64,000 nucleotides of DNA from Strix aluco (taxonomy: Eukaryota > Chordata > Aves > Strigiformes > Strigidae): positions 28,693,029-28,757,028 of the forward strand of contig NC_133933.1 in assembly GCF_031877795.1 (NCBI RefSeq), written 5' to 3'. Within the stretch, counting starts at the first letter, position 1. Each line of letters begins with the position of its first letter. The position numbers were made by a program, and so were the translations under genes. The notes under the pieces were generated by a model, which worked only from the letters and a program-made list of their open reading frames with translations, searched no databases and was not told where the DNA came from. Positions 1,447 to 64,000 of the stretch are shown here, piece by piece.

Positions 1447-31064
<29,618 letters not shown>

Positions 31065-39429: not shown

Positions 39430-39510
39430 TCAGTGGTCCTCTAATTCCTTTTTGATCTCTGAAATGTATGGATGATCTTTCCCATGTGCTACTTCCATGA
39501 TAGCAATTGC
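39430..39510 (-). CDS. SMYD2: SMYD2 exon 12 (terminal coding exon)
   Basis: It encodes AIAIMEVAHGKDHPYISEIK and then KELEDH, followed by TGA at 39430-39432. Human ends QEIESH at the same length. It is the last helix of the C-terminal domain. Acceptor TTTCATAG, phase 0. Confidence 0.96.
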   Translation of the reverse strand, partial: AIAIMEVAHGKDHPYISEIKKELEDH

Positions 39511-42500
39511 CTATGAAAAGAAAAAATATTCACACAATTGATTCATATATAACACCAGGCTATAAATACTCTCTTTAGAGGTTTGAAACAGTCTGACACC
39601 TCGAGCTACTTTTTGTCCCCTTGTAGTCATAAACCCAGTAGGAAATAAAATGAAATTCAAAACTAAGTAATAAAGGTTTTACATTCAGAGAATACACCTT
39701 TCATCTTAAAGGATCCCAAAGCACCTTTCAAAATTATATTCCTGACAAAACTACTTTGAATGCAACCAGCTCCAGGACAGAAAACTGCAAGTGGGGTGGG
39801 TAATATTCTGGCAGAGGACTTAACCAGTATCAGACGGAGCTCTGTTCCTACCGATTTATCCTTCAACTGTCTGACGAGCAGGCCTATTGCAGAAGTTAAA
39901 TTAAGGCACTTCAGACTTGATTTTGTAAACCCTCCACCGGTACCAGAGGCTACCAATGGTTTATGAAGGAAGCAATTGTTTAGGTAACCACTGAGGCAAA
40001 AGCAGGATCTTGTCAGATTCGGACAGATGCTGCTGTGCCTGACTGCCTTCTCACCTACAGCCTGCTCTGGCCCTAAGAGTGAACGCATCAGGCAGCCAAA
40101 CCCACTGACTTGCGGTTTCCTGCCACTATCCCCACGGCATTGCAGAGTGGGTGTCGAGGCAAGATTTCCACTTCAGGAAAGGATAGCAGTGGCCCCGAAC
40201 ATATAATAAAAGGCAGCAGTAGGTAGGGCTGAAAGAAGCAAGTTCATCTAAGTCTGAGAACATTTAAAGACCACAGTGCTGAGACAAAGCAAGGAATTGC
40301 AGCATCCTAGCCCTCAGAGCATTTAGTCATTTTCTCCTTGGGAAACTTTTATGGAATCATGCTCTTATGTTTGTTAAGTCAGTACAACAAGAGCCTTTGG
40401 TTCCACCTCAGCAGCAGTGCAAAATGACTCCATTCCCCCTCCTGCCCAAAAGAAGAAAGGAGGGCCTTCTGGACGAGCTGCTCGCAAACTGAGAGAGAAC
40501 AATAGTTTTGTTTTTCCACTAAATCCCAAGCATCAGGGGCTGGGATAACTTTGGGCAGTTCCTGTAGGCAGTTTTTGGAAGTGAGTCATTAGAAAATGTT
40601 TGTGTTAGGAAGCTAACTACGCCAACAAATCTACCTCCAGTTCCCAACCCCCCATCCCAGGTTCCTACTGGCACAAATCCCAGTTTTAGTCAAAGCTTTA
40701 ACACCACAGCAAAGGAAACCCTACGCTAATTTTAAATTAGCTAATAGTTAAATTTTAGACCATATATTCTTGTAGTATCTTTCACCATGGCTGGATGGCT
40801 CTGTTATTGCTGGCTAAAAACTTGCCAGCATCTAAAAAGGAAGAAAGAAAAAAAAATCATGACATTCCACACCAGGTCATTATATGCTACAGTAGTCACT
40901 GATGCTTAAGAAACTAAAATACACTTCTGTCCAACAACAATAGGGGAAGAAAGTCAAGAAACATGGTACAGACTAATAAAAAAAATAGAAGAATAAAAAA
41001 CGAAAGTATAAGGAACACACTAATAAAAAGGGGTGAAGAAAAATGTAAAACCAAATGCTGTATTTGCCAATTTCAGCCTTACCAGATGCACTGAATTCCC
41101 TTCAGCTATTTAAAAATCAATTGGTTCCAGAACAAATAACTACCAAAAACATGCCTAGTTTAATTTGGATATAGAAATCACCGACTTCAATGAAACACTA
41201 TGTGCCTTTTATAAGAGCAAAGCATTTTTCCTGCCCTTAGCTAGCAAGCGAGAAGCTTCATTTACACTAGTTCAGCTCTAGCTCAGTGCAGAATGTATAG
41301 CAAATGTTTAAGCATAATGCTCACTCCAGCTGCTGCAGTAAAGTCCACCGTGAAAAGGTAAGACCCCTTGTATGCAAGAACAGACCTATACTCCATCTTT
41401 GGAAAAATCAAAACTGAGCCAAAAATCCAGTAACCAAATATATTAACACATGGTGCATTTCCTACCAAGCCAGGCTTACTAACAGAGAAGCACGTAGCAT
41501 TTCAATGATCCCATGCCTGAACGGGTATTATTAATGAAGAAACCAGGAAATAAATACCCTCTTCAGAGCTTTAACTCCAGCCATTCTGTTCTCCAGTGCC
41601 ATATACAGTCTCCCTAATTTCAGCCACATGGAGGCAACATTCAGCGAGTAGGAGGGATAATGTTTACTGCAAGAGAGAAAGAAATTCAGCTTTATCAAAC
41701 CTGGCAGTTTCATAGCATTTTCCCAGCCCCCGTCCCCCTCTCTGGGGGCAAGAAGCTGCCTCTCCTTGCCCCTGCCCATTCACTGCTCATCCCCTCTGCC
41801 ACGACTGCCAAGACTCAGTGCCAATTGTGTCTGGGATAGGGACGCCTGTCAATTGGGAATTGAACTGAAACTACCATATGCCTCTGAACAGCTGTCAGAT
41901 GGCAATGACTTTCTGCCACTAGTTTTAATCTAGCCAGCTACAGAAAGAGACTGCATTGTTCTGAGTTTTTGGAGCCACCCTACACTCGCAGAAGTAACTC
42001 TGCCTATTCCACAATAGTTGGTCTTTAATGGAAAGCGAGGGGCCCTCAGCAGTGCGACAGCACACATGCCATTCTGTACTCGCACACACTGAGCTAGCGG
42101 AGTCCGGTTCAGCAGAGCTGACCTGGAATGCCAGGCTCGGAGCCAGAGGAGCTGGGCAAGTCCCAGGGAAGATAAATAGTACTGAGCCCCAGGGGGGGGA
42201 ATGTTGGCTCCTTCTCTGTATCACTGCTCTCTGCCAAGTGATCTGTGACTTTACGTTGGCATCTGCTCCAAAGGGAGAGCTTTACTTGCGCTTCCCCCAG
42301 CTGGCAAGAAAGTCATGTCTCAAGATGAGAATCTGCCTGGGAGATTCATGGCAGGATCAGATACAGCGCGGAACTGGCAGGCTCTAATGAACGAGAGCAC
42401 TACTGTAAAAGCACAGAAAAATTTATCGGAGAGAGTATTAATTTTTTCCTGCAGAGGCTGCGTGCTGCCTTGCCCCACACGGGGCTTCAGCCTGCACATT

Positions 42501-45500
42501 CTCCCACGCCTCCAGCTCTAGGGCAGTGGAGATCAGGGCACCCACAGCCTCCGAGTGCAGGAGCTGAGCTCAGCTCCAGCTCCCTCTGCTGCTCAGCCCC
42601 AGCCCTGGGACAGGGCTCTGCTCTCCTGCAACCGGGACCACCGTGCTATGGCAGAGAGAAAGGACTGGGAGAGAGCGGGAGGTTGGCGGCAACAGCGGGC
42701 TTTGCCTCCATTACCTTACACAAAATATTGACTGCAGATGCAATTCGAAGCTCTGCTTCAGTAAAGTACTAGGATATTCAGAAAGCCAGTATTTATCTAG
42801 CTAAGCAGAACTAGCACAGTACCCAAGGTGGTACAAACTTATTTTGAGAAACCAAAGCAAGCACCTTCTGCCATATATTGCAGACCACATTTTGACAATA
42901 ACAAAATTTGTCCCAGCATTTAAACATTCCTTTTTGAGCACTGATGTCATGGGTAGCGTGTTTATACAATACGTACTGAGAGAACTGATCTCTGCCCAAA
43001 CTTGTCTTAATTATTCAGATTACAGAATTAGAGCACTAGAACAAAAATAGTGAGTCTCCTATTTACCTGTATGGTCTGATAATTTTTTGCCCATAACGCA
43101 GTGCACCTTCCCAGTCCTGCACGTAGAGACAGACACCCATGGCTTGGTACATCATATGTAACATGTAAACATTACTGTCTTCAAACACTGCACCCATCTT
43201 GTCCAGGCTGAGTTCACAGATCTCCAGTAATTCACTTGGAGGTATGAAGAAGTCAAGGAACCCAATAAACAGAGGGCCTCTCATCAGACAACTATCGGGT
43301 AACGCCAAAGAAGAATCGACTTCAACTTCAGAATGGTTCTGAGAAGCCCTCTTTTCTCTCAAATGGCATCAAAGCATCCATGCTACAACCCCAGAGCTAC
43401 TCTGAGAGGTATTCTATACTCAGAGCTATTCTGCTCATGAGATTATTCCCCCTCCTACTCAGATATTCTACAAAACTAGCTTTCAGATTTAAAAAGCAAC
43501 AAAAAAAAGTAGCTTTCCTGAATCACCACCGCACCAGCAATGTGTCAGAAGGCGGCAGAGTGAAATTCCCCATGCAGTGGGTACTGAATCGGCATGAGAT
43601 AGCCTGGTCTGCTTCTGGCCCAACGGATCTTGCATTTTTGTCCAAATCGCACCACTGTTACAACAGGTAGGCTTGTGCCCATCAGCAATAGCTGCAGCCT
43701 CACATGCAGTCTTTCAAAACAGGGCAATACTACAGCACACTAACACAAGCATGCACCTATGCTCACTGGCTTGTGTGGAGACAGCCACATGCTGCACTCC
43801 ATGGAACTGAGAACCACACAGGAAGGCACAAACACAGGGTCTCACAATCCCACACCACCTGCTGTGTTAAACCACCCCTTGTCTCCATGGACAACTCTTC
43901 AGAGACAAAGAGGGCAGAGGTAAGTCTAACTTCTAACGGTCATAGCATTTCTCCTGCAGGTACTTCTGAAGCAATCCAGCAGGTAAGACTTTTAGGTCAC
44001 ACACCAAGCCAGCGGAGTCAGGGTGAGACAAAGGATATATTTGTAGTGTTTGGCTCTCCTGAATTCCTCAATCACATTCCTGGCATATTTGATCATGTCC
44101 CGTACCGTCTCTGCTGATGGAGGATCATTCAACTTGCGGATTTCCAGTTTCTCTTTATCCTGAAGGAAACACAATGGATGTTATAAATGCAGGTTCCAAG
44201 CCCTACAAATAAAGGTGCACCTGCTACACAGAATTACTCTAATAAAAAGACACAGATGGGAACTTAAGCTCTTCAAAGAATGTAAAAACAAAGGTAGAAT
44301 GTGCACCTGCAGTTTTTCTCTAAAGCCTTGGCTGGGAACCCTAGAATCCTCTGCACCTTCCAGTTCATCTGACATTCTCTACTTCCATGAAGTCTCTTTC
44401 TTTTGAAAGATCCAAGAGCTTTTCGATTTTGTGATGAAAGCACTTTTACATAGGAAATTTCACTGCTTCCGAGAGATTAGGGATTAAAACAAATTTAGTT
44501 TCAAGGGTAGAAAAGCCCAAATACCTTAGGCCTGCCACCAAGTGATAGCTCAGTGGAAAATGAGATGATATTAAATACAGAAAAGGATCCTTCATATCTA
44601 CAGACAAAAATATTTCGTTATTTCTGCTGGACAGCTCCACTTACTCTGATCTTTCTATCTAACTTAGTACTTCATGAAGAGTCAGCTGCAATCTGGAGAC
44701 AATCTTTTGCTGTTTAAGCCTCACATCGTTGCTCGATTTCTTTTTCATTTATTATTTCATCTGCCAGCTGAGAGGACTACAGGGGACTCTTTCCAGAGCT
44801 GAAGGAGGCTGAACAACAGGTGATTCCAAGAGTAGCACATTGTTGGAAATCACAGATGAAATCCTGGCTTTGTTAAACTCGGTGACAAAATTATCATGGT
44901 AACTGTGGGGAAAAACACAACTACGGTATTAACAGAATGGCCTCAAACAAGAATACTGGGTACTATTTGGAAAAAAAAGTTACAAAAGGTGACACCATTT
45001 AGAGGAAGAAGATGGTTGTCTGGTGAGTTTGGCAAGCAGCTCTTAAAAGGACACCTTTATAAAAATGGGGGGAAAAAAATGATCTGGCACTTAAGGATCA
45101 GATTATGCCAGCCAGACTGATCTTGGCTGGAATGACAGATGAGCCACACAAAGCTCAGTTCTCCTAGGACCTTCAGTGAAGGAGGTCCAAACGGTTGCAC
45201 AGGCACAGTTGTTTCAGGATCTGTTGGGGCTGGGTACCTTTTTTTATTCTCCATAAGTGCTCTTCTTCAAAATAACTAACACCTTGTTTTAAGGAACGCT
45301 GTCTGGATGTCTGCCTTTGTCCCTTGAAGGGCACCAGGTGATATCTAATGAACATAAATCTGACCTGCACTTCACAAGGGGCTGTGACCCAGGACCGCCC
45401 TGTCCGTCAGAAGATCGATACGAGGCCATTGCAGGAAAGCCCATTTCGCAGATTTTGCTGGGTCTCCAAACCACCCAACAGTGTCATACAGTGCCACCTA

Positions 45501-48500
45501 GAATTGACTGCGATGTCCCAACCAGGAACTGCAGCAGCATTCTATCCCAGAACAGGACCCCAGAAATGCCCCAAGCAAGATTCACTAGCTGAGAGTTGGT
45601 AGAAAGTTACAAAAAAAAAAAAAGGAGTTCTGAGCTAAATTCTTTTGGCCAGGTAGCATACTCACAGTATAATTACCTATTTTTAACAAAGTTTTCATCT
45701 GTGCTTTGTAGTTCAACTTTAAATAGGCCTCCACCAGGAAATTTCCTGATGTGTCATGGTTACAGTGGAAAGAATGAGTATCAGAAAGTCTTCTAAACAG
45801 AAAAACAGAACCACCACCCCCCCATTATCCTACTTTTCAAAATGTAATTAAACCAGATAGAATATCACATCTAAGGACCTGGGTAGGTGCTTTCACAGTC
45901 AGAAGCACATTTCACACTGAATTTATTACCTTTTCTTTTGTAATGCACTCCCTGCAATCACAATTAAAGAAATAGGAGTCTCTTAACCGGTCATTTCTGT
46001 CTTCTGTGGGATACAACAGGTCAATATAGCTGGTAAAAACCTACATGGTAAAAACATAGCAGTCAGTGAAAGCAGTATAACTATACATATTTATCACTAC
46101 TAGTTCTGGTCACATAGTGTAACATTCATGCAACTTGTGGACCCCTGCAGCCACATCACCTGCCTGTTCCTTCACATTCCAAGCTTCTCGGCAGCATCAG
46201 GAGTTGCCATTTGTGAATGCAATCTGAAGAGAAGCGTTTCCTTTGCTATTCATTATGGAATTTCCCTCAAATATTACCCTGGCTTAAACCCAGGACAGCA
46301 AGATTCAGGTGTGGATAAGGACACTATCACAGCATAAATCTCAGGCTTCTGTCAGACTACAAAGAGATGCCTACTTTTCAAAAGTAAAATAATGATTTCA
46401 GGTATCCAGCCTAGCATAAATTACAGCGGCCTGTTTTTTCAGAGGCTGGAATCTCAAATTTTTCTTTCTGAAAACCTACAAAAATTGAGGCAAGAGCAGT
46501 CACTAGTAACTTTAGAAACTTAGGACCAGACCTTTAGATCTCTGAAGAAAGGCCCAGTGCTCCAGTTCTAGGAGAGTTAATACCAGATTTACTTCAGCAA
46601 TAATATTTTAAAGGAAAGAAAATCTGCTTTTGAACATTTTAAAGGCCCTTCACATGCACTATTCTTAAGTTCTCCTCTACTTGAACAGTCTTCAGAAAAG
46701 AACCCCTGCAATTAGATTTAACGCTCTGTTTTTGAGATCTCCCCCAAGAAACATGTCATATGTACAGCGCAGTTTATCATTTTGCAGACCAAGGAACAGC
46801 TTTAGTTCCATTTCATCATTTATAGTTATTTGGAACGTTCTGCTCAGTCTTTATGCTTAAGGTTTCTTTCTTCTTTAAAGTACAATGTGCAAGTAATTTC
46901 ATACAGTACATGTTCTTCTTAGTCTGTGTGATCTCACACTCCTCTCCTCCCTTCCCTGTTTTCAAAGCATGCAAAATGCAGGAACTACATCTACAGCAAA
47001 AACTCCAAGAATGTTGCAATGCAGTGGCTGCATCGAACCTGAAGATGGAGACACAGGCCGTAAGACCACAGAGAGCACAAGCGAAATCAAAAGCTCACAT
47101 TTACAAAATTTTTAAGTGCCAGAAAAGCAAACGCGCAAAAGCCAGGAGGTCCTGGAGAACTGATGCAGCTTCTAAGACACAACTCAATCAAAAGAAGATG
47201 CCAAGCAAGGTAAATACTCCACATCTCTACATTTCACAGTAAGCCCTCCCCAAAAATGCTGAAAATGTCCAGGATCCTGCAGTAGAATCCCAAAACCAGG
47301 ATCAGTCCTTGTCCATTACCATAATGCATTTGCAGTGACTGCCAACATCACAGACAAATCATCACTAGTAAATGGCATAAAAATAAGTTGCTCACCTGAG
47401 TCATTCACCCTTGGCTCCAGCAACTAAATTCACTTTGTTCACAATGGTGAACAGCTATAATCCACAAAAATAACCTCTCTCCCCTTCTTCAAAACTCGTA
47501 TCATGTACTTCAGAAAGCGATAAGAGTTATCAAAATAAAATCTGAAATTATTTTTATGAGCATTAACCTTGCCCACTAAATTAACATTAGCAAATGAGCC
47601 ACTGAAACTGCGCAAACTCCATCCCCAGAGAGAATGTTCTGTATCATCATTCCCTGCAGATATTTGAACATTCCCGTCAACTCTGTTTAACACCTTTTTT
47701 ATTAAAAGCAAAAAGCAGCTCTGTTGCTGAATACTCCCTGCCAAGTTCATTATTTGATTGAGAAAGTTTCAAGGTAAACCCAGAGCCTTCCTCAATTTCA
47801 CAGAATTTTATCCATCACTATTCAGCTTCACTCCACCTAAAAACACACTCTTGCTGTTCTGTGACATCCCAGCAAACACCACTGAGGTGATATGACCGAG
47901 TCCCGTGTTTTGTGGACGTTCTGTCCAAACAGAAGTCAGAGGACTTATCTGTACCCACTTACCTTGTTTATTCTGGCTTCAATTTCAATACATTACTATT
48001 CTACTGGGAACTATTATAGCAGTAATAATTTGCTTTGATCTTGGAATTTCAAAGCACCAGCCAAACACCAGTAAACTCAGCCTCATTTTACAGATGGGTA
48101 AACTGAGACAGAGGCTGGCAGATACACAGTGACTGCTGCAGGTGCCCTTCCCTTGTTTTAGCACAAAACAGGATACTGCCTCCGAGAATCACTTCAGTCC
48201 TCCAGAGCCACCCCAACTTTTCCAAAGCAACATCTTACACTTCTCTGAGAAACAAGAGATCCTTCCTCGCTATTATTAAATTGTCACCTAATTGAAATGG
48301 ATCCTGAAAAGCAGAATGGATCCTACTTTTAGGATGCATGCGTACAGCGTACATTCAAACACAGTGCATTTACCTCTTCTCCAGGCTCAATCTCTTTAAC
48401 GGCTCTGACTTCAGCCAAGGTCCCCTTGTAAGTTACAATCACATTTGGACAGCAGCTGTGGTTCATCAATGCAACACTGTAAAAGTAGAAAAGTAAATCT

Positions 48501-51500
48501 TTTCTGCCCCCTACCACCAAAAGCAACAGGCAAAAAGTTAAGCACCACTTCACAAAACACATCAGCCTGAAAGATAAGAGTCAGGCTCTCTCTGTAAGCT
48601 GTTTTATTCTGAGGCTTAACATGAAGGTAACCTTGGGAAAATCTGTTGTACTGTTATTTATTCTAATGATATGGAGAATGGCTGTGCTAATGAATCATTA
48701 CAATTTTTAAATCCTATTATTGCAGGACTAGGCAACTTATTTTCCATTCTTATAGTGCTATGGGACAGCTGACAGGGTTGTTCACATAGCTTAACTATCA
48801 ACATCCTATTTAGGTATCTATGACAGACAGACTGTTTTCCTCAGAGAAGAAAGAAACAAACACATTTAACCTACAGGACACAAGCAAATACAGGAAAACA
48901 AAAGTAATTTGCTGCATCACAACTTAAGATACACGTTAAAATTTTAGCTGGTTTCTGTGCAAACATAAACAGCCTCCATATTTGAAGTGGGAGGAAAGAT
49001 ATCTCTGTTATACAAGCACACGACTCGCACAAGAACTTGGGACTGCTAGAGAAAAGTACTCCCCCTTACTACCAAGCTTGCAGAAAGCGCAACTTGCTGC
49101 TTATTTGAGATAAAATTTATAAAATGTTAATTCTTTCTTTTCCAATACAGCTAAATAATAATTGTCTCGTCAGCTCACAGGCATAACTGCTAAGTAGAAA
49201 AGATCTGGCTCTTGCATGCTGAGCACTTACAAAGGATGGTGCTGGACATGTTTCCAGAACATTTAATGCTCTCCTCTCCCCACCATGACCCTGATCCTGG
49301 GCATTTCAAGCCCTTAATCAGGGCTAGATCAGGGATATGGACTTCAGACAGACCTGCCTGAAGAAGCAGAATCTGTGAGGCAAGGACTATCTACTACTGT
49401 CTGTATGCAGACTTAGCAAAATCAGGTCCTGCTTGAATTGGGCACCTGCAAGTTTCAGATTACTTTGACATAGGTAAGATACTAGTAACCTATGCCTCAC
49501 AAGGAAGTCAACCTAAGCGGACAGTGATAATACTTTCAGTACAGGGCTTGCAAAGAATAGGGGCAGAAAATACCCTCCTTTGCTAGCACATTAAGTGGAA
49601 AGGACAGACTTAAAAGGAAGAAATGTTCCTCAGCCTTAAAGAGAGCTGTTCTCCCCCATCCGCAAACTGCAGTTAACACTTAACATCTGCAGTGATTTGT
49701 AAAGCTAAGAAGCTTGTACGTATTTTTTCCACTGTCACAGCAACATAAAGCATTGTAGTTTTTAAAACACCTGAGGAGGCTGAAAGGAATTATGAAAGGG
49801 ATTTAGTGTTTGCCAAGGAACAAAGGTAGAAGGGATGTTGTTCAGAGAACATCAGGTGAAGGATTATACCCAGCCAAAACAGAAAGTTGTGAATAGAGCA
49901 AGTCACCTGCAATCCTTTTCATTTCGCTTTGATCATTACATGATGTCCCTGTCCAGAACCTGCTAGCCAAGTAACTGTTTCCTACCAACGTGCATATAAT
50001 TCACAATCTAAACTTCAAAACAAATTACAAGTGCAATTTTACCAAAATTACCACATTTTTAAGTAAAACTGCTGTAAATCATTGGCCACATTAGATAAAG
50101 ATATTTAAAACAAGACAAATTAAGTGTTCAATTGAATTTCTTTCACTAGAGATCTAATTCCATACATGTGTAAGAACCTTTGTTTGTTTTTAAATAAGTT
50201 AATTTTATTTTTTAAAATATCTAAATCAACCTACTCAGGAAATATGGCTGATCCCAAATGAGAGAGTTCTTCATCTTCAATTGTAAAACCATTACAGTTA
50301 ACCTAAGGAAAAAGAGAGAGAGGTCAGATCAGCTCCTGGTCAGCTAAGTACTCCGCACCCACATGTCACATTCTCATACTTGAAACTCAATTGTAGTAAT
50401 TTGCTTACAATTTTCTTTCCACCTCACCAGTACTCACAGGGAGCTACACGACGTCTCAAAACGTGAGGTGAGGACAAAGCCCTGACCAAAGGAATGTGCA
50501 GGACACTAAAGAACTGACAGTCCTACACTTGCACCTGCTCAGGACACAACCTCTAGTGGATTGCTCCTTGGAAGGGAAATGAGGCTTGAAAAGAGCGATA
50601 GAAAATGTCAAGGCAAGATCATTGCAAACACGAAACAAAGCCTGACACTGACCGGGCAAAGAGACTTCAGTTGGCCATGACAAGTAAAGGGCCAAAGCAG
50701 AACTACACATGCAAGGAGCAATATGGGGATGAACAGCAGCAAACTCAACTGGGGTGGGGCAGTACAGAGCTTTGATGGAGCGTATGTTACGGAGACTTGC
50801 CACAATGACATCTGTCATCAAGGGCTGCATGTATCAGCTACAGCTAAAGCACATATAAAGAACAACAAAGGCAGTGAGAAAGACTTGAACCTAATAAAGA
50901 ATAGAAGGGGACAGAAAAAGGACAGGGTTTGAGAGGTTGTGCATTCCTAATTTAAACAGACACAAGATCAAAAGAAGCTTGTTCACAAATCCTTCTTACT
51001 ATTCTCCCTCTTTTATTCTCACTAAGCTCAAGGGAATCTTACAGGAATTTCAGCTTTGTTTCACATGGTTTGTGTTACTTTAAGTGACCAAAATGCACCT
51101 CAGTCGAGTTTCATTCCACTTTCACTGCAAGTCACATACATGCCAATGCGAAGAGAACCCTCTCCACATTCACCAACATCTCCCTACAATCATCAAAATG
51201 TTCACAGAAGCACCAGTAAAGCACTAAAACAACTGCTGTCACATGACCAAGGCCAGCTGAAGCTACAATGGGCACAGGAACAGGCAATCAAGTAGAGCAT
51301 AAGTATTTGTTCTGGAAGGGTAAGAGTTGACAACAAACACCACCAACAATGACATGCCCCACAAGCTAGAATGCAGCTCGGATTGGATTTTAGAAATACA
51401 CAAGCCACTCCTCAGGTATGAACTGTTCAGGATGAGTTCATGATTAAGGGAAGTGTCCTGTTTCTCTGATTCACTCACCAGTATCTTTGCTTGATCTTTA

Positions 51501-54500
51501 TCCTGCTATTTTTAGCAAGGTAGCATCCAAAGGCTCCCTGTCTCTCAAGATGAGCATGGTACTGCGTTAGCCAATGTATGAGCATACCTGAACCAAAACC
51601 AAAATGTAATTGCTGAATACAAAAACAATAGGAGGGAAAGATTATATCCACAGCAAGTAAGAACATAAGGCTACACAGGCTGACATGTACAACAGCTTGA
51701 TGGTTCTGAATCACAGGGAAATATTTAAAAATATGCAGTGAGTTATCATCAACTCCCCTCCACTAAGCCAGAGACAACTCACTTCTTGAATGCATCATAC
51801 CAGAAATGACACAAGAGAAAGAATCAGAAGGGATGAGATACCACCGGTTTCACCAGATGAATACATGACTGAAAAAGGCAATGTGGAGGGAGTAAAGAGA
51901 GAACAGTGAAAAAACTACAGATCAAGGTTGTTCCCAATGGTGGAAAAGAGAACGTGCAAAGGGAGGCATAAAATTATGCAAGGTCTTCAAGAAAAGGATG
52001 AGATGCTGGAACTTGAGACAAGGGAGAAACTGTTTGAAGAGTATGACAAGGTGATACTGGGGAGGAAGAGCACCAGTCTCAAGAGCTATGCTCCACAGGG
52101 ACAAAAGAGAGCAGAATGATACCAACAGCTGGGGAAGAGAGCAGTGAAAGGCAAGGATGGTTTACGGACAAAAATCTTTGCTCCACCCAAAAGGACCACT
52201 TACACCTCAGCCATGTTGAGTAAGAAACGACATCAGACAAAGCCCACAAAAAGCAGTGAGCAAGGAGTAATAAGTATCCTAGTCCAAAACAACTGCCCTG
52301 AGCCACAAGGAGAAAGAATGCTGAATGGAGGAGTGAAGTAGACAACATGAAGCCAGAGAAAGTGTTGAAGCAAAACAAAGGAGCAGCAGCATATCCATAC
52401 TACTGGTTTTAGGTCAAGTTAACTAATTATTAGGAAACATGTTTGTACATATCAAGTACAGACATGTCTTCCCTTTTTCCGGAAAGATTCATGCTGGGGC
52501 TAAAACCTCAGAAGGTTGTAACCTGTAAAATACTTCTGAGGAACATCCAGATGACCTTTGGAGATTTTAGTTCCAAAAATGGCGACGTTGACAGTGGCAG
52601 ACAGTTGCCTGACAGTCAGGATGAGCTTAAGGTGACACCTAAGTGCAACATTATACATTTACAGACAAGACCAGATAAGACTTCAGATCTGGAGTCAGCA
52701 GTTCACAGAAGTCCGTTAAAGTACCATGATCTAGTGAGCTGGTTCAGGACAGCACATGAAGCGAAAGTCATTCTAGCCAAAATAATGAAATCTTTGGGGA
52801 TTCTGGCTACTTTCTAACAGAAACACTCAGAAACACCACAAGAAACTGGATGTACTGATGTCTTTAAAGTATCCCTCTGGCAAATATAAATTGCAAAGTC
52901 TTCAAAACACAAAAAACTTTTCACTGAAGGGAAATGTATAATTAGAAGCAACACAATGGATGACGAGTAGATGCTAAACATGCTAAAGAATCATTCCCCT
53001 ACAGAGTAACAGTATCTCTATATTAAGGAAATAGTAACTGTGCCTCTTTGTTGGTAGAGGCCCAGTTGCCATCTCAGCTTTCATCACAGCAGTTAACATT
53101 TGCACCCATCTCAAAAAAATTAAACTTTTTACTCAGACGTTTAAAACTAGCTTATTTTGAAGTACAGGAGGAAAAAGAAGAAAATGGATTTTTCGGTATT
53201 CCACTGGTGTTATTCCATCCACTATAATACATTCAATTCAGATGCGTATGAAAAGCAGGTGAGAAAAAAGAGGTGACACATTTCAGAAGTTATCTAACAA
53301 GACATCCTGCCTTTCCTTCATCTCTCCAGATGACCAAACTACCTGACTGCATTTAAAAGCCACACACCAGATAAAAGTTTCAGACTGCTCTTTCTACTTC
53401 TCTGAAGTTTACTCCCTGTGAAGGTCAAACACAACGACGACCTGACCAGCAAGGATTTCCACAAGTTTGAAGCCGGAACGAAGGATTTTGCCTCTGCAGG
53501 ATCTCAGACCAGCAGCCTTCCATGTAAGTCAACAGCAGCTGCACTATGCTTGGCCCACAAGAAGCCTAACTTTGACAGGGTCTAATACAGGCTGTTTCCC
53601 CTTTTCTCCAGCGTTTGAGAAGCACCTCATAGAAAGTCTGCAGACAAGTCTCTCTTCCCTCACTACTGAAATGGGGCATGTCCAGCCACTTCTGCTCAAG
53701 GAAGTAGATCTTCTCCATCAAGCACACCCAGCTCTCCCTAAGATAAGCAAAGAGCTTACCACTTCCATTGCCATTAACAACTTCCTCTTTCACAAAGGCT
53801 AAACTCCTACAGCACCATCCACCTAAGCAGGCCGTGTTCTAGCCAACTTACTTGTGCAAAGAGAACTACAAGGGCAGCATTGTCAGGGTACTCCAAGTGC
53901 TTTGAGTAAAAGTGATGAAGAGCAGCAATGTCGTTCTGAATCAGCTCTCTCTTTTCATTGTCTAGTTTGTCAAGGTCTGTGGACAAAGAATACATTCCAT
54001 TTCAGTAACAGGAACACTCCCCCATGAACTGCAGCTAGACTTACGTTAGAACAGGCCTGGACTTAAACAGAAACCCCTCAAGGAACAGCTGCTTGGAAGT
54101 ACTGCAAGAAGTGTCTGTTCTTCCATAAACGTAATGCTGCTCTGCCAAAGCCACATGTGTGCTCCAAGAACATGCAGGATTAAAAAGCATTTTCTAACAT
54201 CTTTACATTAGCAGGTAATGGGACACAAATTTCCCTTTCATGGGAGAAGGGTTACAGTATTTAAAGTGCATTTGTTAACCCTAGCAAACAGACCAGCCAG
54301 CCCTGGCCCTCTAGAAGCCTATCAGCTGTGGGTAGCTATCATCAGCTGTGTAACACGACCTACGAGCTACTTGGTCCCATCTACTGTGGTATGAAGTCAC
54401 ACTCAACATCACACTTCTTAAAACATGCTTTACATAGTGAAACTTCCTCATATTGTTGGTTGTAATTCTTATCAGTACAAACCAGCCCAGACTCCTGCTA

Positions 54501-57500
54501 AGGAAGGCTGCTTATCTCTGCTTTTAAAAGAGTGGTCTTTCCCAGCACAGAGGCCCTAACTATTCGTGGCCACATGTGATGGGGACCTAATATTGGTTGA
54601 CAACAATGCTGGGGTTAGTCACCAGGGGTTCCCTTTGCAGCAAGAGGAGGATAACATGAGGGTGCCCAGGACTGTAATCCACCTGACCTACTGCAGGCAC
54701 CTGCTTCAGGAGGTAACAAACAGTGCTTGAGAATGCCCATGTCTCCATGGGCTGGGGGGTGACCATCAACAGAGGTGTTTTTAACTGGCAGATATCTGAG
54801 AACAATAGGAGACAGCACGAACATCAGCAGAAACGTCCTGGCACACCTGCCAAGCGCACTGCCTTATGGGTTTGTTCAGAGATTTACCCTCAGGCCCGTG
54901 ACAGGTTCTAGACAAACCTGTGGCCACTGAACCTTTTCCTGCTTGGTCCATGCAGAGCAAGCTAGATATTGACCATATACTCCTGGTCCCTTCTCTCTCC
55001 TCAAGAGCAGAGTGTTGGAAACTTTCTTCCTAATACTCTCTCTCACAGTGGCAGTGTCACCAGCTCACTCCTGCTCTAAGAGAGCCAGCAACTCATCAGT
55101 TTCCCCTCTCCAACTCAAAATAACAGTGGAGAGGAAAACATGTAGGAGGAGAAAATGCTGCACAACAGTGGAAGAAGAGGGAAATGATTTCTAAGAGCAG
55201 ATGTGAATGACAGGAGAACCACAAAAAATACTGAGGAAAGTGAAATGGGACAATTTGATGAGAACTAGGACAAATCAGAAATAAGAAATTTTGAGCTTCC
55301 AACTGACAACCAGGTGCCTTTGCCACTCCTGTGCAGGGTGTTGCAAAGCGTAAGGCAACTGCTGAACACAGCAAAGTTGTGCTAAGAGATGAGGAGAGTC
55401 AACAAGGCAGAAGGAACAGGGGTTCTTACTAACAAAACAAGGGCTCCTAGAGGACAAGGGGGACGTTGCAACAGTAAAAAAAAAATCAGCCTTTTAGCTC
55501 CCAAATTAATAAATTATTGAAGACAAGCTGTAATGCAGAATATACAGAAATTACTTCAGCACCTACCCATCCTCCTCAAGCTCAATCCTACTAACCTACC
55601 TGTAAAAATTATCCTTGCCTTAGGCAAAGTCAAGTATTGGCATTTTTCCCCCTTATTTCCCCAGTTGTCCCAACAGCTGTGACAGAAGCTTTTGTTCAGG
55701 AAGCAAGTAAGACTGTGATCTTGCTGTGCTTGTTACTCCGCTACCTCAAGTCCTAGCAATGACTGCATTTATTCAAGCATTTTATAAAGGGTTTTGGAAG
55801 CCATCAGAGTGAAAAATGAGAATATACAAACCTATTGTCTCCTTGTATATTACCCCCAGCACCAAGAAAGAGAAACGAGAGACCAGTGAACACTGCCAGG
55901 ATGGTTACTAGTCCCCTAGTTCCTCACTTTCTAACTCTGTCTCATCGGACATAAACAGTAGCCTTCCAGTTAAAAGCAAGCTATTGCCTCATCTCCTTCC
56001 TTGGATTATTTTGGAGCATTTAGGACATGGAATTTCAACACAATCATATATAACATGTCAGATTTGACTGGCAGTGACAGATACTGAAGCACAGTCCAGA
56101 GGGTTCTGCAATTAGCCCCTTAGTCACTGTCACCATCAAGCAACTGTGCTGTCTCTGATTTTATGCCTCCTGGTAACAAATACCAGCTATTTTAATTTTA
56201 CAACATTACAATTCTCAAAAGACACTAGAGTACCAGAAAAGCCATGAGATAGATGTATGCTACATAATTAATTCTGTCTAGATTCTCACCCCTGTTTCAC
56301 ATCCCCGACAAGCAACCAAGAAAAAAAAAAAAAGAAAGAAAGAAAGAAGAGCACTGCACTTTCAAAAAAATGAGGAACCACAATTCTCTTTGTTTAATCC
56401 CTTCCTCCAACAGGAGTGGGATGCTCTGAAAGGTTTTGATGGAGGGGGCCAGGGGGAAGCAAATCATTAATATAAATAACTGCCTCTGTTTACCTGCAAG
56501 CCTTTTTTACTTACGCGATTCAAACTCTTTTACAGCAAGCAGCTTCTCCGACTGTGTTCTTTCAGGGTGAGTTTTCTAACAATAAGGGGGAAAAAAAACG
56601 AAGAAAATATTTTAATGTTTTAAGTTGGCGGTTTTGCCTACTCATTCATAAGCTGGGAACTCCTACCTGTAAAACAAACCCAAATCCACACTGTATGGAA
56701 TTTATAGAAGTTGATTAACAGCAATGAGTTAAACTGACTGCCCTTAGTAAAGCCATAGAAATATTCTCTTCACACCAAATTAGGCAGCTGAAGATTAACT
56801 CCTATCAAATTTATATACATAAACTGAACAGTATTTTAAATATGTCATTTGCTTTGTTCTAGACACCCAGAAAGCTGCTAACAATAGCAAGCAGGCAGGA
56901 GACAGGCTTCGCTTTGAGGAAAGTGAATAAACTGACTGTTGACAGAGTTCAAAAGCAATGCTCCATTGTTGGCCTAAGGCCACTTCTTTGTAATCTTGGC
57001 CATTAAATATGGCTTTGCAGGTGGCCCAGCAGCTGAGGTTCAGGGACTATGGTTTGCATATTTAGCTTTTATATGACATGTAGGGTTCTCCCCCCTCCCT
57101 GTAAGTGATAAAAGCACAAATTTATTCCAATGACTTTTTGTCATTAAACATTCGATTTTGTTTGTGGATCACCACTAAACCACGCTTTAATTAAGTCACA
57201 CACACATACATTCACACACACATCTACACACACAGCAAGTATGCAGCTACCTTCCCAGCAGGCCACCAAAATCCTCACTACATACAGTATCCAGGTTGCC
57301 CTTGTCACATAAGCAGACCTCAATCACACAAATATGCTTCAAAGAGGATTTGTTTTTGTGGAAAGAGTTTAGAGCTCTACAAAGATACACAGCATAATAA
57401 CCTTGAAACTCATGAATCCCGTCCCCTCCCTTAAGCACTTGTGTTATCCTCAGTATCCATTTAGTTAGGGAACACTGAAATGGAGGTTGACATTGCAATC

Positions 57501-58326
57501 TTATTTCCTTACTAATAACATCCTTTTCCTCCAAAGAACAAGATCCAGAGATTTCTCTCTCATTCTCTGTTTTTCACCAGTTAACTCCAGTAATCGTAAA
57601 CATTTATATCTGAGTATCTCAGAGGTGTTCTGGACTCACAAATGTACTGGGAGTTATATACTACATAATGCTATGCAGATACAGCTGAAAAATAGTACAA
57701 CAGGCAACTGCTTCATAGAGATGTCAGTGCCTGCAGACAGGTAACACTAGGAACATTCATCAGAATCTAACCACATACACCAAGTCTCAATTCTTCTTTC
57801 TTCTTCACCAACGTGGCCTTGGTGCTAGCCCACATATGTAACCAAGAGCTGGACCAATCTACTAGAACGGAGGCTGAAACACCATTCACATTGCAAAACT
57901 ATCAATAAACTTTTCCAGACCCTGTTCAACAGTACTCTTGGCTGTAAGTTATAGCTACACAGCTTAAAACCTCACTAGCCTTTTGCCATCTTCCCCCAAA
58001 CGTCTCCAGCTGGACTACGGTGGCCCTCACACTGCTGCAGTGGTCTGATGGTCAGTTCGTTCAGCTGCTCATGCTCTGTATTACACCCGCCCGTACACAG
58101 GAAGCTAGTATGTACGTGCTTTGCAGGGACAGTTACTGTCGGTCAATTTTTATTTTCCTGCCTTCCCTGGCACCCAGAATAGGAAGATACCTCCCAAGTC
58201 TAGCCTCCTGCTCACCTGTTTGGCAAGGATCCTCGCTGTTAGCCTCACAGTCTCCGAGGGATTCCAGTTCTGCCCAAAAGCGCACATGGCAGAACATTCT
58301 AGCTTGTGCATTGGCCAGTCTTCCTT
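39430..58326 (-). CDS. SMYD2: SMYD2, SET and MYND domain lysine methyltransferase (partial, exons 3-12)
   Basis: Ten exons on the - strand join in frame: 58216-58326, 56515-56575, 53852-53976, 50235-50302, 48374-48476, 45930-46040, 44039-44159, 43067-43241, 41558-41666 and 39430-39510. They give 354 residues and a TGA stop. With 79 residues expected from exons 1-2 the total is 433, the same as human. Visible features are the last two MYND zinc ligands (MHKLEC), the SET motifs NHSCCPN and GEEVFTSYID, the post-SET cysteines (CDCREC), and the C-terminal TPR-like helical domain. SMYD2 is known to methylate lysines on histone H3, p53, RB1 and HSP90 using S-adenosylmethionine, in cytoplasm and nucleus. 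All introns are GT-AG except intron 9, which is AT-AC. Confidence 0.97.
39511..41557 (-). other. SMYD2: SMYD2 intron 11
   Basis: GT-AG intron of 2.0 kb. A short segment at about 39690-39745 resembles an old amniote retroposon (tcatcttaaaggatcccaaa followed by gcacctttcaaa). A 141-residue open frame on the - strand here has no recognisable homology. Confidence 0.85.
41558..41666 (-). CDS. SMYD2: SMYD2 exon 11 (C-terminal helical domain)
   Basis: The 109-bp exon completes a split Ser and adds 36 codons, KHYPSYSLNVASMWLKLGRL and YMALENRMAGVKALKR. It is a TPR-like helix pair matching human. Acceptor CTTGCAG, donor GTATTT (weak). Confidence 0.95.
41667..43066 (-). other. SMYD2: SMYD2 intron 10
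   Basis: GT-AG intron of 1.4 kb. A GC-rich block at about 42470-42700 stands out from the AT-rich surroundings but matches no repeat I recognise. Confidence 0.85.
43067..43241 (-). CDS. SMYD2: SMYD2 exon 10 (C-terminal helical domain)
   Basis: This 175-bp exon has two bases of a split Ser, 57 codons and two bases of the next split Ser. It includes PSELLEICELSLDKMGAVFE and DSNVYMLHMMYQAMGVCLYV. It follows an AC, not AG, 3' splice site. Only that boundary restores HYK-SPSELLEI as in human. Donor GTAAAT. Confidence 0.95.
43242..44038 (-). other. SMYD2: SMYD2 intron 9, U12-type AT-AC intron
   Basis: The 797-bp intron begins ATATCCTTT and ends CTTCATAC. The U12 branch-point consensus TTCCTTGAC lies at 43252-43260, with its adenosine about 12 bases from the exon. 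These are the defining signals of minor-spliceosome AT-AC introns. No GT-AG alternative keeps the conserved protein. Confidence 0.93.
43252..43260 (-). promoter_or_regulatory. SMYD2: U12 branch-point sequence
   Basis: TTCCTTGAC on the - strand is an exact match to the TTCCTTRAC consensus, at the usual short distance from the 3' splice site. Confidence 0.93.
44039..44159 (-). CDS. SMYD2: SMYD2 exon 9
   Basis: The 121-bp exon of 40 codons plus one base reads DKEKLEIRKLNDPPSAETVR and DMIKYARNVIEEFRRAKHYK. It starts the C-terminal domain after the post-SET region. Acceptor CCTTCAG. The 5' splice site is ATATCCTTT. Confidence 0.95.
44160..45929 (-). other. SMYD2: SMYD2 intron 8
   Basis: GT-AG intron of 1.8 kb with a (+ strand) A-run near 45610-45622. 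No gene was recognised. Confidence 0.87.
45930..46040 (-). CDS. SMYD2: SMYD2 exon 8 (end of SET, post-SET zinc site)
   Basis: The 111-bp exon of 37 codons reads VFTSYIDLLYPTEDRNDRLR, then DSYFFNCDCRECITKEK. It holds the SET tyrosine of TSYID, the Tyr of DSYF, and three post-SET zinc cysteines in CxCxxC. Human has TCECQEC here. Acceptor CCATGTAG, donor GTAATA, phase 0. Confidence 0.96.
46041..48373 (-). other. SMYD2: SMYD2 intron 7
   Basis: GT-AG intron of 2.3 kb. It holds an old retroposon relic at about 48031-48140. A 129-residue + strand open frame at 46853-47242 is not supported as a gene. Confidence 0.86.
48031..48140 (-). repeat. MIR-like ancient retroposon relic
   Basis: The + strand has ttggaatttcaaagcaccag, then cctcattttacagatgggta and aactgagacagaggc. 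That matches the antisense of a MIR-type core (cctcattttacagatgagga, aactgaggcacagagagg), preceded by the aaagcact block seen in related amniote elements. Confidence 0.6.
48374..48476 (-). CDS. SMYD2: SMYD2 exon 7 (SET core)
   Basis: The 103-bp exon completes a split Asp and adds 34 codons, VALMNHSCCPNVIVTYKGTL and AEVRAVKEIEPGEE. NHSCCPN at 48443-48463 is the S-adenosylmethionine-binding and zinc-ligand motif of SMYD SET domains. Acceptor TTTACAG, donor GTAAAT. Confidence 0.97.
48477..50234 (-). other. SMYD2: SMYD2 intron 6
   Basis: GT-AG intron of 1.8 kb. I recognise no repeat or gene in it. Confidence 0.87.
50235..50302 (-). CDS. SMYD2: SMYD2 exon 6 (SET domain)
   Basis: The 68-bp exon encodes VNCNGFTIEDEELSHLGSAI, then FP and two bases of the split Asp. 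It is nearly identical to human. Acceptor CCTTAG, donor GTAGGT. Confidence 0.96.
50303..53851 (-). other. SMYD2: SMYD2 intron 5
   Basis: GT-AG intron of 3.5 kb. Several + strand open frames (such as 52443-52817) have no recognisable homology and no supportable splice sites. No repeat family was recognised. Confidence 0.85.
53852..53976 (-). CDS. SMYD2: SMYD2 exon 5
   Basis: The 125-bp exon completes a split His and adds 41 codons, LDKLDNEKRELIQNDIAALH and HFYSKHLEYPDNAALVVLFA plus Q. It is the helical insert before the SET core. Acceptor TCCACAG, donor GTAAGT. Confidence 0.96.
53977..56514 (-). other. SMYD2: SMYD2 intron 4
   Basis: GT-AG intron of 2.5 kb. It holds an A-rich (GAAA)n tract at about 56320-56349, and no gene was recognised. 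Confidence 0.86.
56320..56349. repeat. poly(A) plus (GAAA)n microsatellite
   Basis: A run of about 13 A is followed by four GAAA units. It could be a retroposon tail that expanded, but the body was not recognised. Confidence 0.85.
56515..56575 (-). CDS. SMYD2: SMYD2 exon 4
   Basis: The 61-bp exon encodes KTHPERTQSEKLLAVKEFES and one base of the split His. Human reads KIHPERTPSEKLLAVKEFES. Acceptor TTGTTAG, donor GTAAGT. Confidence 0.95.
56576..58215 (-). other. SMYD2: SMYD2 intron 3
   Basis: GT-AG intron of 1.6 kb with a CA-rich imperfect repeat at about 57197-57234. I see nothing else in it. Confidence 0.87.
57197..57234. repeat. imperfect (CA)n microsatellite
   Basis: Three short CACACA blocks are separated by tacatt and tcta interruptions. 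It looks like a decayed dinucleotide repeat. Confidence 0.8.
58216..58326 (-). CDS. SMYD2: SMYD2 exon 3 (end of MYND finger)
   Basis: The 111-bp exon of 37 codons starts KEDWPMHKLECSAMCAFGQN and ends WNPSETVRLTARILAKQ. The His and Cys of MHKLEC are the last two MYND zinc ligands (H86 and C90 in human). Acceptor TTTTCAG, donor GTGAGC. The rest of the MYND finger is in exon 2, outside the window. Confidence 0.96.
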
Positions 58327-61300
58327 CTGAAAATGTAGAAAACTATTAAAAAAAATAAGCCATGAAGATAAAGTGATGAAAAAGAGGATGCAGTAAGTCC
58401 TGCCAGATCCTAGAGGTCAAGTGAAATGTGTTTCCTTTAAAAAAATAAGATGACGCTCACTAAACCTGAACAAAAGCTTGAGTCACATTTAAGGGGTACA
58501 GCTATCCTGCTTTTTTCAAACAAATTCACAAGGGATGAGTTAAGGTCAGAACATCTTCATTTATTCAACGGAAAAAAAGAATTAAATGATGAAGAAGCAA
58601 ACAGACAACATGATTTATAAATCACCAGTTCTTGTTGTTCAGATCAAGCACGTGCGGACAGAGTAGCTCTGAGATTGATGGCTTTATTGGGTGCATTTCC
58701 ATTTAATACCTTGGTCCCTCATTATGAGACAACCCCGGTGTAATCAGGAGTAATGTGTCTGAAGTCAATGGATTCACAATCGCTGTAAGAATCGGTATAT
58801 GTAAGGTCAAAACCAGACCTACTGAATAGAATTATGAGATTTTTTTACTTAAATGTTGTAGAATAAGAGTACAGCTAGGCAATGAAAACACACTAATAAA
58901 GACAAACACATTTTAGTTAAAAATATAGCATATTCCTAGCTCAACATACAATAACACTTGGAGTGATGGCACAAGCCACTGGCTTTTGGCACTCTACCAA
59001 TTTCCTCCACAGCAACAGAATCTTTCAAAGATGAGCACAGAATCACTGATTAACACTCTGCACTGGCACACAGCCTGGCATGGGCTGTCCTCAGACTACA
59101 TCAAATTTAGTTTTATTTATTTATTCAAACATGGAAATATTCTTATTTCTGTATTCAAGCAATGCACTATTATTTATTTCTTTATCTTATCCCAGACACA
59201 CATTTATAGCACTGTGTTAGAACAGACTTAAAGTGTTCTGCCTGTATAGGGAGCATGAAGTTTTGTTTTTAGACCAGATTTAAACCGGTAGAAAACAGTA
59301 GCAGAGGAAAGAAATCACAACAAATCCCACAAATTTATAATTGATTGAAAGCGAAAATTTGAAAAACTTTTTGTAGCCTCCAGAAAGTTCTTAATTCGCC
59401 TTGCTGTGATTCACCCACTATCACAGACCCTGTATTAGCCCACTCCAAAAAAAAATTAAAAATAATTGTTTTGTTTTGTTTTTTTAAATATAGCCCATGA
59501 TAGTGACTGAGTGGCAGGAACAAAAGAAACACAGAGTTTCCCTTGGCTGCCTAACCACTGATGGCAAAAGCCATTTGAGACACCACAGGCTATCTAAAAC
59601 ACCTACGTAGGACCAGTAGATATGATACAGGTCTACTGGGAGATGCATTCCTTGTGGGACCTACAGCTGGAGGTCACACTGGACAACCCAAGGCACCTCA
59701 AACAGCCAGCCAAATCAGGACCCCCAGCATCTCCTGCCTTGGCTGGTCCACCGATTTACAGGTTTTGCAGATCAAAGCAAAAGCTGAGATCACTAATTTC
59801 AGAGTTAGTACACCAAAAATTCTTCCATTGAAAATGGCCATTTTAATTGCCCTGGTCACGGACAGCTTTAGGAATTTATTTTATTAGGAAAAGAAAGATG
59901 AACACCTGCCCCAGCCTCACATAGGATTTGAAGCAGTGCAACACTGCAAGGGTATTCAGCCCCTCACAATGTCAACTTCATTGTCCTTGATATCTCAGTA
60001 TGGTACTTCCAAAAAAACCCACATCCAGGCTGCTTGAAATAAACTCCAGTGTAAATGTTCTAAGAGGATGCAGCAATACAGACCAGGAGAACCAAAATAG
60101 TGTATTACACTGTAACCATGTCACGTGAAATTACACTCTCAACTCTCCTACAGCTGTCACACTACAAAACGCTTCTCTGGAGAGGCCCGTTTCCTATGTA
60201 CGCCCCAAGACCTTTTCTGGAAAATTCTCAATAGCCTTTGCTTAGGAATCCACAGGCTAAAGGCTAAGAAGTGAGACAGAGGGAGACCTCACCTCTCAAC
60301 ACCCACAGCACCCACCAACTTCAGCGTGATTTCTCGGTGTGCAAGAAGGGAAGGCACAGAACCTGAAGTTTTGTAGGACCCACACCCATACACACCAGTT
60401 AAATAAACAAGAGAGATTACCCGATAACAAAAAAAAAAAATCAAAATGCAAAATCACGTGCCTGTCTCAAACCAGCGTTTTTAAAAATCCGTTTGCTCCC
60501 TTTATTCTTTACACATTGTTAATTAAAATCTTTCCCCAGGCAGAATCATACTGAGTTATATGAACTAGTAGGGAGGTTAAAGGGACAAGATATGGCTGAA
60601 TTGTGCAAAATGAGATAAAAGCCTGAAACACCACAAGAAGAGAGAGTACTGATGACTGAGTAATACCTGGGATGGAAACACTGTGACAGCAGCTTTCCCT
60701 GCAATCACAGCAGGGCTGTATTTTGCATTCTTTTCCACATTTTTCTCTACGTAGTTTGAATTATAACAGGTAGCATTGTTCTAGTTGAATCCCTAACGCT
60801 ACGTTAATGATATTTTCTTCCTATTTTCATTACATCCACAGTATTTTTCCCTTCATTTAGGAGTGAGTGACAACATTTTTGGAAGGGAAGTTCTTTAAAG
60901 CTTATGCTTTTCACATCAAAGCATGGAAACAATCTTCTCCACCAAGTTCTTCAAAATGATTCCACTGTCCAGGACTACTGGATTAATTCCCAGGACAGTG
61001 TCATATATATAGCTCAGCATAAAAAAACACCCAGAAACAACAAAATGTAATACGCCCAAACACATAGCCACAAGTCCAAACAAATGTCCTCGTACCTCCT
61101 TCCTCACGTGAACTTTTTCAATAGGATGTAAAATTTCTGTTGCATTTCATTTGATTGAAAAGAAACACACACAAATACCAGGCAGAAATACTGAGCAAGC
61201 CAGCACAGAGGTTAAGCCCACTTCTTCAAAAGCTTAATGCCCAATTATGCTCAAATGGCATCCAATTCTTTAATCGAATTTCAGTGAGGCAATTTCTGAC

Positions 61301-64000
61301 GTCTGATATTATTCAGTAGAATTCTCCGATACAGTCCTTCACCAAGCAGTGAAATAAGAGTTTCACACATCTTCACACCCATCCTTCCCTACCATCATTT
61401 ACTGAATGCCAGACCATAGAGAGTACTTGACTTCCACAGGTTAATGTTCAAAAGGTTCACCGGAGACATTTATCAAAGAAAGTTACATGGAGAAAGTTTT
61501 TGGATAGGGGGGCAGACACTTTTCCAAGGCAATCTTAAGCAGAGTCTTGCAGCATCAGGTTCATCCCGGGCAGAATCATTACAGCAAGAATTTTGTATTT
61601 TTTCTAAGGCTCACCAAAAACGAGTGGGCAATTTGTACAAGGTCCCATTTAAAACACATCTGCTTGATGCTAATTCCAGGTCTACAACTACATTTTGAGG
61701 CTTATCAGCTGGTTAAAAATATGTTTTCCTTACTCCAGAAATACCAACTACAGGTCTCTTTAACATGACATGTTCAGAAAAACCTGTAAATATTTTGTTT
61801 GAAATATATTTCAGCTATGGAAAGTCATGACAAAAACATCTCCTTCTGCACTTTGGCTAGTTGATCTCCACTCTGTCTGGGATAAATAATAGCTATGTGT
61901 AATAACAGAAAGAGGAGCTCCAGTAGCTGGTTCAAGTTCACCAGTTCCACAATTGCAACCACATAACCCTCTTAAAACATTTCTCTTCAGAGTGTTTCAG
62001 CAGCTAATTTCGGAGGAGAAAAAATGAGCGCAGGTCTCCTGCTGTTTGACTAAAATTATTATAATTTAAGAAGTCAAGACCCGAACAGCTGCAGATGGGG
62101 TCTGAAAGTCACTGTTACAATAACAGCCCTGTGCTTCGAGAAGGCAATAGTGGAGAGCAGAACGGTATGAATAAGCTGGAAATCGCAAACTCTTTTAAAA
62201 GGAGAACTGGATTAGAGGCTGGGAAAAGAAAGACACAGCAAACCCAGGCTAGATTCTACCAACCCACAAAACATTCAAGGCAGCAAGGACAGGCAGCGAA
62301 GACAACTTCCACTCTCACATGCCCCACATCTGAGACTGAACCTACACCTATGAAAACATCCAGCTTAGTACAGGTCAAACTTCAGGTTATCTATCTTAAA
62401 AGCAAAATAATAGACCAAAATAGGCAAAAGACACCTTAGCACTAAGGGAACTGTGCCAGGGTCAGCGTATGAGTGTATGTGTGAGTAGAGAGAGTGCCCT
62501 AAACAAATCAGCCACTGTATCACTGCAAGACTTTGTCTTCCTGAGTTCAGTCCCTCACACTACAGTGTGACACCACCTTTCCCTGCAACCAGGGCAAAGA
62601 AATTACACTGCAAAGCAGGACTTGGTCAATGCATCAAACACCTGGCCATACGGCAAGAGATGCACTTTTTTACCACCTGGGGGATCAGCTGTATCTTTTT
62701 GTACCTATACCCCATCCGCAAAATCAGAAATGCCACGAAGGCGGCTGTGAGGCTTCATTCATTAAATGCTTGGAAGTATTTTAAGAACCTCAAAACAAGG
62801 ATACTATATGGCTCAACAGAGTGGGAAATACATGCAGCGTCATTAACTCACTTTCAATAACCACGTTATTCTGAAAGAGAAAAAAAAAATCTCATTTAAC
62901 AGAAATGCACTAGAGGATGAGGTCTGCAGTTACAAAATCCATAATTCTGAAAAGGACATCCAAAAAAAAATGTTTCCTGCTGCACACTCTGGCACCCTTC
63001 TCTTGTCTCCTCCTGATCCATCTCTCCCTACCACTAGAAAGAATTCCTATGAACTGTGGTATAGCAGGTCTTTAAGTAAAAGAGTAAGCTCAGAAAATTT
63101 GGTTTTCTATCCCATACAGTATATTTCACATGATGAACAATTGTCAAACTGAATTATATGGAGTAACAAGGTACTAACCAACACCTGAAATCATACCGTG
63201 TCTTTGTTGAGTACATGTAATTTTTAGCTGAACTAAGCAAAGAAAACATGGATTTACAGAGAAAATTAACTTAATAAAATAAAAATCAAATGAACAATGC
63301 CATCGCAATTCTCAAGTACAGCCCTGCCCCTTTATCAGCATTGCATGAAGTCTCACATCCATGGAAGCAAAAGGGACACATTTACTGTACATCCCAGTGT
63401 TACAAGTTCAGTATCAAGGCACAGATGTCCTTTTTTGCTTTGACAAAGAATTGCTGAACTGCTGAAAAGTGCCTTTGAACAAGACAGGGATGAAGATGCA
63501 GTGCAGATTGTCTGTGCAGCACGTACAGTCAGTGGAGACCAGTTACTAGAGAATATTATGCTTGAAGGTAACTTTGAAAGAATGTCAAAGAATTCAATCT
63601 CAGCAACATTCATAAATTTCATCAGACTGACTCAGAAAGGCCCAAAACATGGAAGATAATGTTATATTAACTAGGGAGTCAAAAGCCATATGCATATCAC
63701 CAGTACGAGTGTAGTGCTAGTACCTGGGCTTGTCATACTATTGTCTAGACATCACAACATCTAAAAAATGCCTTTATATCTAAAGCATCATACTACATAC
63801 CAACAGGTAAGAAAGATTTTAATTCATTAACTTATCAGACAGACAAGCAGGTTTTTGCTGAGCATCATCTCCTGCAGTCTTAAGGACACTCAGTTTGAGC
63901 AGTTCAGTTTTTAATTCTTGGAATACGCCTTACTAGAGAAAGAGTATTCCGAGCACCAAAAAAAAAAAAAAAAAAAAAATCAAATTAAGAAAGTAACACA
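58327..64000 (-). other. SMYD2: SMYD2 intron 2, 3' part
   Basis: At least 5.7 kb of intron continues to the window edge. I searched for exon 2 (MYND cysteines) and did not find it. An unexplained stop-to-stop frame lies at 63444-63659, and a 22-base A-run lies at 63958-63979. No repeat family was recognised. Confidence 0.75.

Follow-up and report, generated by a model that had tools for sequence, protein, structure and literature searches.

Judged from its sequence, intron 9 of SMYD2 in Strix aluco is almost certainly the orthologue of the U12-type AT-AC intron already known from this gene. The preliminary description of this DNA had proposed the gene, the exon joint and the U12-type class, and all three are borne out by signals that match at 9/9 positions, by a gapless SMYD2 alignment and by the listing of the intron as U12-type in five mammals. 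The SMYD2 AT-AC intron is real and was correctly read, but it was already known in mammals, a point on which that description was silent; since it is on record for human, mouse, rat, dog and chimpanzee, it is an ordinary intron of its kind. The coordinates given earlier (43242..44038) and the AT-AC ends proved exact, with 797 nt in the sequence of the minus strand. Positions refer to the window, that is, the whole stretch of 64,000 nucleotides that was analysed, and the elements of the intron are as follows.

43242..44038, minus strand: SMYD2 intron 9, assigned to the U12-type (minor) AT-AC class, phase 1, 797 nt
44030..44038, minus strand: 5' splice site ATATCCTTT, 0/9 mismatches to RTATCCTTT
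43252..43260, minus strand: branch point motif TTCCTTGAC, 0/9 mismatches to TTCCTTRAC
43242..43243, minus strand: 3' splice site AC

Read off the minus strand of the window, the intron starts with ATATCCTTT (longer, ATATCCTTTG) and ends with TTCCTTGACTTCTTCATAC, and the junction reads exon ...CAC TAC AAA T / ATATCCTTTG...GGGTTCCTTGACTTCTTCATAC / CT CCA AGT GAA TTA CTG GAG. The exons at 44159-44039 and 43241-43067, joined in phase 1, give HYK-SPSELLEI, and this joint, which had been proposed for SMYD2 beforehand, matches the solved SMYD2 chains without a gap. Introns of the minor class have the consensus strings RTATCCTT(T) at the donor and TTCCTTRAC at the branch, and the branch A of U12-type introns usually lies about 10-15 nt from the 3' end. 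Both strings are borne out by the entries in Table 1 of PMC7367187. In intron 9, the 5' splice site ATATCCTT(T) sits at the exact exon end with a 9/9 match (44038-44030), and the branch A lies 11 nt upstream of the final base of the intron, close to the estimate of about 12 bases before the exon that had been made for the branch point. Downstream of the AC within the branch motif, the intron holds no AC but the terminal one.

The junction belongs to a ten-exon model of SMYD2 that runs from 58326 to 39430, in which the exons were placed by reading frame and splice sites. All ten exons listed below rest on this model and on its alignment to solved SMYD2, and exons 9 and 10 also on the sequence itself.

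58216..58326, minus strand: SMYD2 exon 3
56515..56575, minus strand: SMYD2 exon 4
53852..53976, minus strand: SMYD2 exon 5
50235..50302, minus strand: SMYD2 exon 6
48374..48476, minus strand: SMYD2 exon 7
45930..46040, minus strand: SMYD2 exon 8
44039..44159, minus strand: SMYD2 exon 9 (121 nt)
43067..43241, minus strand: SMYD2 exon 10 (175 nt)
41558..41666, minus strand: SMYD2 exon 11
39430..39510, minus strand: SMYD2 exon 12, coding part and stop

The numbering of exons 3-12, and hence of intron 9, is based on the 12 exons that human SMYD2 presumably has, and the exon numbers 9 and 10 used in the preliminary description are consistent with this count. The model encodes 354 residues with no internal stop and ends in a terminal stop codon. 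Against the solved SMYD2 chains, 354/354 residues were aligned gap-free with 727.6 bits, while the paralogues scored 176.4 bits (SMYD3) and 172.2 bits (SMYD1). Identity to the best-matching solved chain, which we take to be the human protein, was 310/354 residues. With a collinear match and clearly weaker paralogues, the locus can be assigned by sequence comparison to the SMYD2 orthologue. If the locus were a pseudogene or an assembly error, the junction would be irrelevant, but ten exons with intact splice sites, 354 codons without a stop and the gapless SMYD2 alignment make this extremely improbable.

The two motifs are not rare in themselves. The window contains 5 copies of RTATCCTT (4.15 expected) and 3 of TTCCTTRAC (1.64 expected); genome-wide, RTATCCTT showed no enrichment, with 46245+46731 occurrences against 49658+49220 for the reversed pattern. 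For this reason, motif counts were not used as evidence by themselves: the window holds both motifs about as often as chance would give, and the genome has no excess of the donor motif. The probability that both motifs fall at one protein-defined junction is about 9e-9 per junction, using the window's own rates and allowing 10 branch positions, and the joint placement of the donor and branch motifs at one junction is not chance. The other eight introns of the SMYD2 model, whose exon ends were picked assuming GT-AG and are supported by the gapless alignment, are all GT-AG, with donor mismatches at 3-6 of 9 positions and a best branch match that differs at 2-4 of 9 positions, whereas intron 9 matches the minor consensus at 9/9 positions in the donor and 9/9 in the branch motif. 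AT-AC introns that are removed by the major spliceosome do exist (PMC6717393, main text), so intron 9 could in principle be spliced in that way despite its ends. But these two full matches are to the minor-class consensus, with the branch A placed 11 nt from the end, and the orthologous SMYD2 intron is classed as U12-type in five mammals in Table 1 of PMC7367187, which leaves removal by the major spliceosome scarcely credible.

To define which splices could work here, donor-acceptor pairs that are in-frame and stop-free within set position limits were enumerated across exon 9-exon 10 (n=161), comprising 25 GT-AG, 19 GC-AG, 39 AT-AC, 56 AT-AG and 22 GT-AC pairs. The exact SMYD2 protein was obtained from 1/161 pairs, the AT-AC pair at 44038/43242, and the claim that only the AT-AC splice restores the joint thus holds for the enumerated pairs within the set position limits. 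No exact protein came from GT-AG (0/25), GC-AG (0/19), AT-AG (0/56) or GT-AC (0/22) pairs. The nearest miss was the GT-AC pair 44029/43242, which uses the same acceptor and inserts three residues (YIL), and among the 25 GT-AG pairs none came near the SMYD2 protein. These results bear on the idea that the AT-AC look is coincidental and that the major spliceosome uses a nearby GT-AG pair. There are indeed 25 in-frame, stop-free GT-AG pairs across the exon 9-10 junction to choose from, but none of them restores the SMYD2 protein, and the sole GT-AG pair that keeps the length swaps SPSELLEICELS for unrelated residues, although the SPSELLEICELS stretch is identical in Strix aluco and the solved SMYD2 chain. 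We consider a GT-AG splice at this position exceedingly unlikely. The enumeration means that gene prediction limited to GT-AG cannot build the correct SMYD2 joint here, so the main import of the AT-AC intron is practical, and gene finders would be expected to mis-join exons 9-10.

Genes for the U11 and U12 snRNAs were searched for in the same genome (1.41 Gb, 202 contigs). This search gave a U11 gene of 110.2 bits with the 5' end AAAAAGGGC and a U12 gene of 147.2 bits that carries GTAAGGAA near its start; at gathering thresholds, no Rfam families were found in the window. A second U11 match (L010:1501-1608, minus strand, 50.9 bits) is without much of the internal stems, has a poor 3' fit and looks like a U11 pseudogene. 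The calculated U11-donor duplex of intron 9 was -5.3 kcal/mol, compared with no better than -1.3 for any of the other eight introns, and 284/5000 random 11-mers paired with the U11 end equally well or better. For U12, pairing with the branch end of intron 9 gave -8.9 and pairing with the pyrimidine-rich end of the GT-AG intron 5 gave -9.2, while 185/5000 random 30-mers paired with the U12 region equally well or better. Because the intron 5 end and random 30-mers do as well, U12 pairing fails to discriminate the branch region. The calculated snRNA pairing is therefore weak support, which separates the donor of intron 9 from the other donors of the gene and does not separate its branch region.

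By the steps of established minor splicing, U11 would base-pair with the donor ATATCCTT; U12 would base-pair with TTCCTTGAC and leave the branch A bulged out; U6atac would then displace U11 from the donor, and the acceptor would be the AC 11 nt past the branch A. Introns 8 and 10 on either side, as ordinary GT-AG introns, would be handled by the major spliceosome.

Table 1 of PMC7367187 contains no bird, and all of its SMYD2 rows are from mammals. In these rows, the SMYD2 intron of human, dog, mouse, chimpanzee and rat is U12-type, AT-AC and phase 1, and the human row reads ATAAAT|ATATCCTTTA...CTTTCCTTGACT...AGCAC, so that comparison with the human orthologous intron, which had been suggested as a check, gave AT-AC ends, the U12-type class and the same branch motif. 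Phase 1, the exon end AAAT, the AT-AC ends and TTCCTTGAC are the same in Strix aluco and the five mammals of that table. The donor ATATCCTTT is common to Strix aluco, human, dog and chimpanzee, but position +10 is G in Strix aluco and A in the other three; mouse and rat have the donor ATAACCTTTC, unlike Strix aluco, and the intron end is CATAC in Strix aluco and AGCAC in the five mammals (mammalian sequences from the rows of PMC7367187). The class is thus U12-type in 5/6 mammals that have SMYD2 rows, and in the sixth, macaque, the intron is entered as U2-type and its ends as GC-AG; the authors use the SMYD2 group to illustrate class conversion. The macaque row keeps the same TTCCTTGAC branch motif, and because this motif is unchanged, we suspect that the macaque entry may be an annotation artefact, of the kind the preliminary description had predicted for GT-AG-limited gene finding.

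Compared with U12-type AT-AC introns in general, intron 9 has the same RTATCCTT donor, TTCCTTRAC near the 3' end and AC acceptor, with no notable difference. The AT-AC share of U12-type introns is 18% in chicken and 26% in human (Table 2, PMC7367187). In the main text of PMC2831892, 156/180 U12-type clusters were conserved in each of the eight vertebrate lineages under comparison, among them chicken, and since such clusters are mostly conserved across vertebrates, the SMYD2 intron would be expected in a bird. The U12 class of this intron most likely predates the split of the Strix aluco and mammal lineages. In the literature that pairs SMYD2 with a U12-type intron, the minor spliceosome or AT-AC, PMC7367187 alone was relevant in the text available; PMC5877747, which also surfaced, deals with FUS and is apparently unrelated, and the main texts of PMC2831892, PMC10639083 and PMC6717393 do not mention SMYD2.

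The consequences of failed splicing were computed from the model. If intron 9 were retained, HYK would be followed by 15 residues and then a stop, and loss of exon 9, exon 10 or both from the transcript would likewise lead to an early stop each time. In 4/4 of these cases the stop lies at least 86 nt upstream of the last junction, which would predict nonsense-mediated decay. The abstract of PMC8034651, however, reports that when exons next to minor introns were skipped, the aberrant isoforms escaped decay and bound polysomes, so mis-spliced SMYD2 transcripts may or may not be degraded. That SMYD2 expression depends on the minor spliceosome, as had also been proposed, would follow from the class of the intron. 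A further idea is that the AT-AC intron was kept unconverted in mammals and in the Strix aluco lineage because the limited capacity of the minor spliceosome tunes SMYD2 output, with intron 9 as a rate-limiting switch, and this we regard as unlikely. Should minor splicing limit the output of SMYD2, the gene would join those affected in minor-spliceosome disorders, which is a general expectation for genes holding minor introns and not special to SMYD2; human minor introns number 770 according to the main text of PMC6717393.

Upstream of exon 3, a pattern search of 58326-64000 on the minus strand of the window found no exons for the first 79 SMYD2 residues, and one MYND-like pattern match for the N-terminal exons was rejected as spurious. 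The missing 5' exons probably lie beyond position 64000, outside the window. At the other end of the window, a long open frame lies at 13182-15215 on the plus strand, followed by phosphatase-like exon pieces in the same orientation near 23494 and 25805. We take this open frame to be the large exon of PTPN14, which is presumably a neighbour of SMYD2 in human too.
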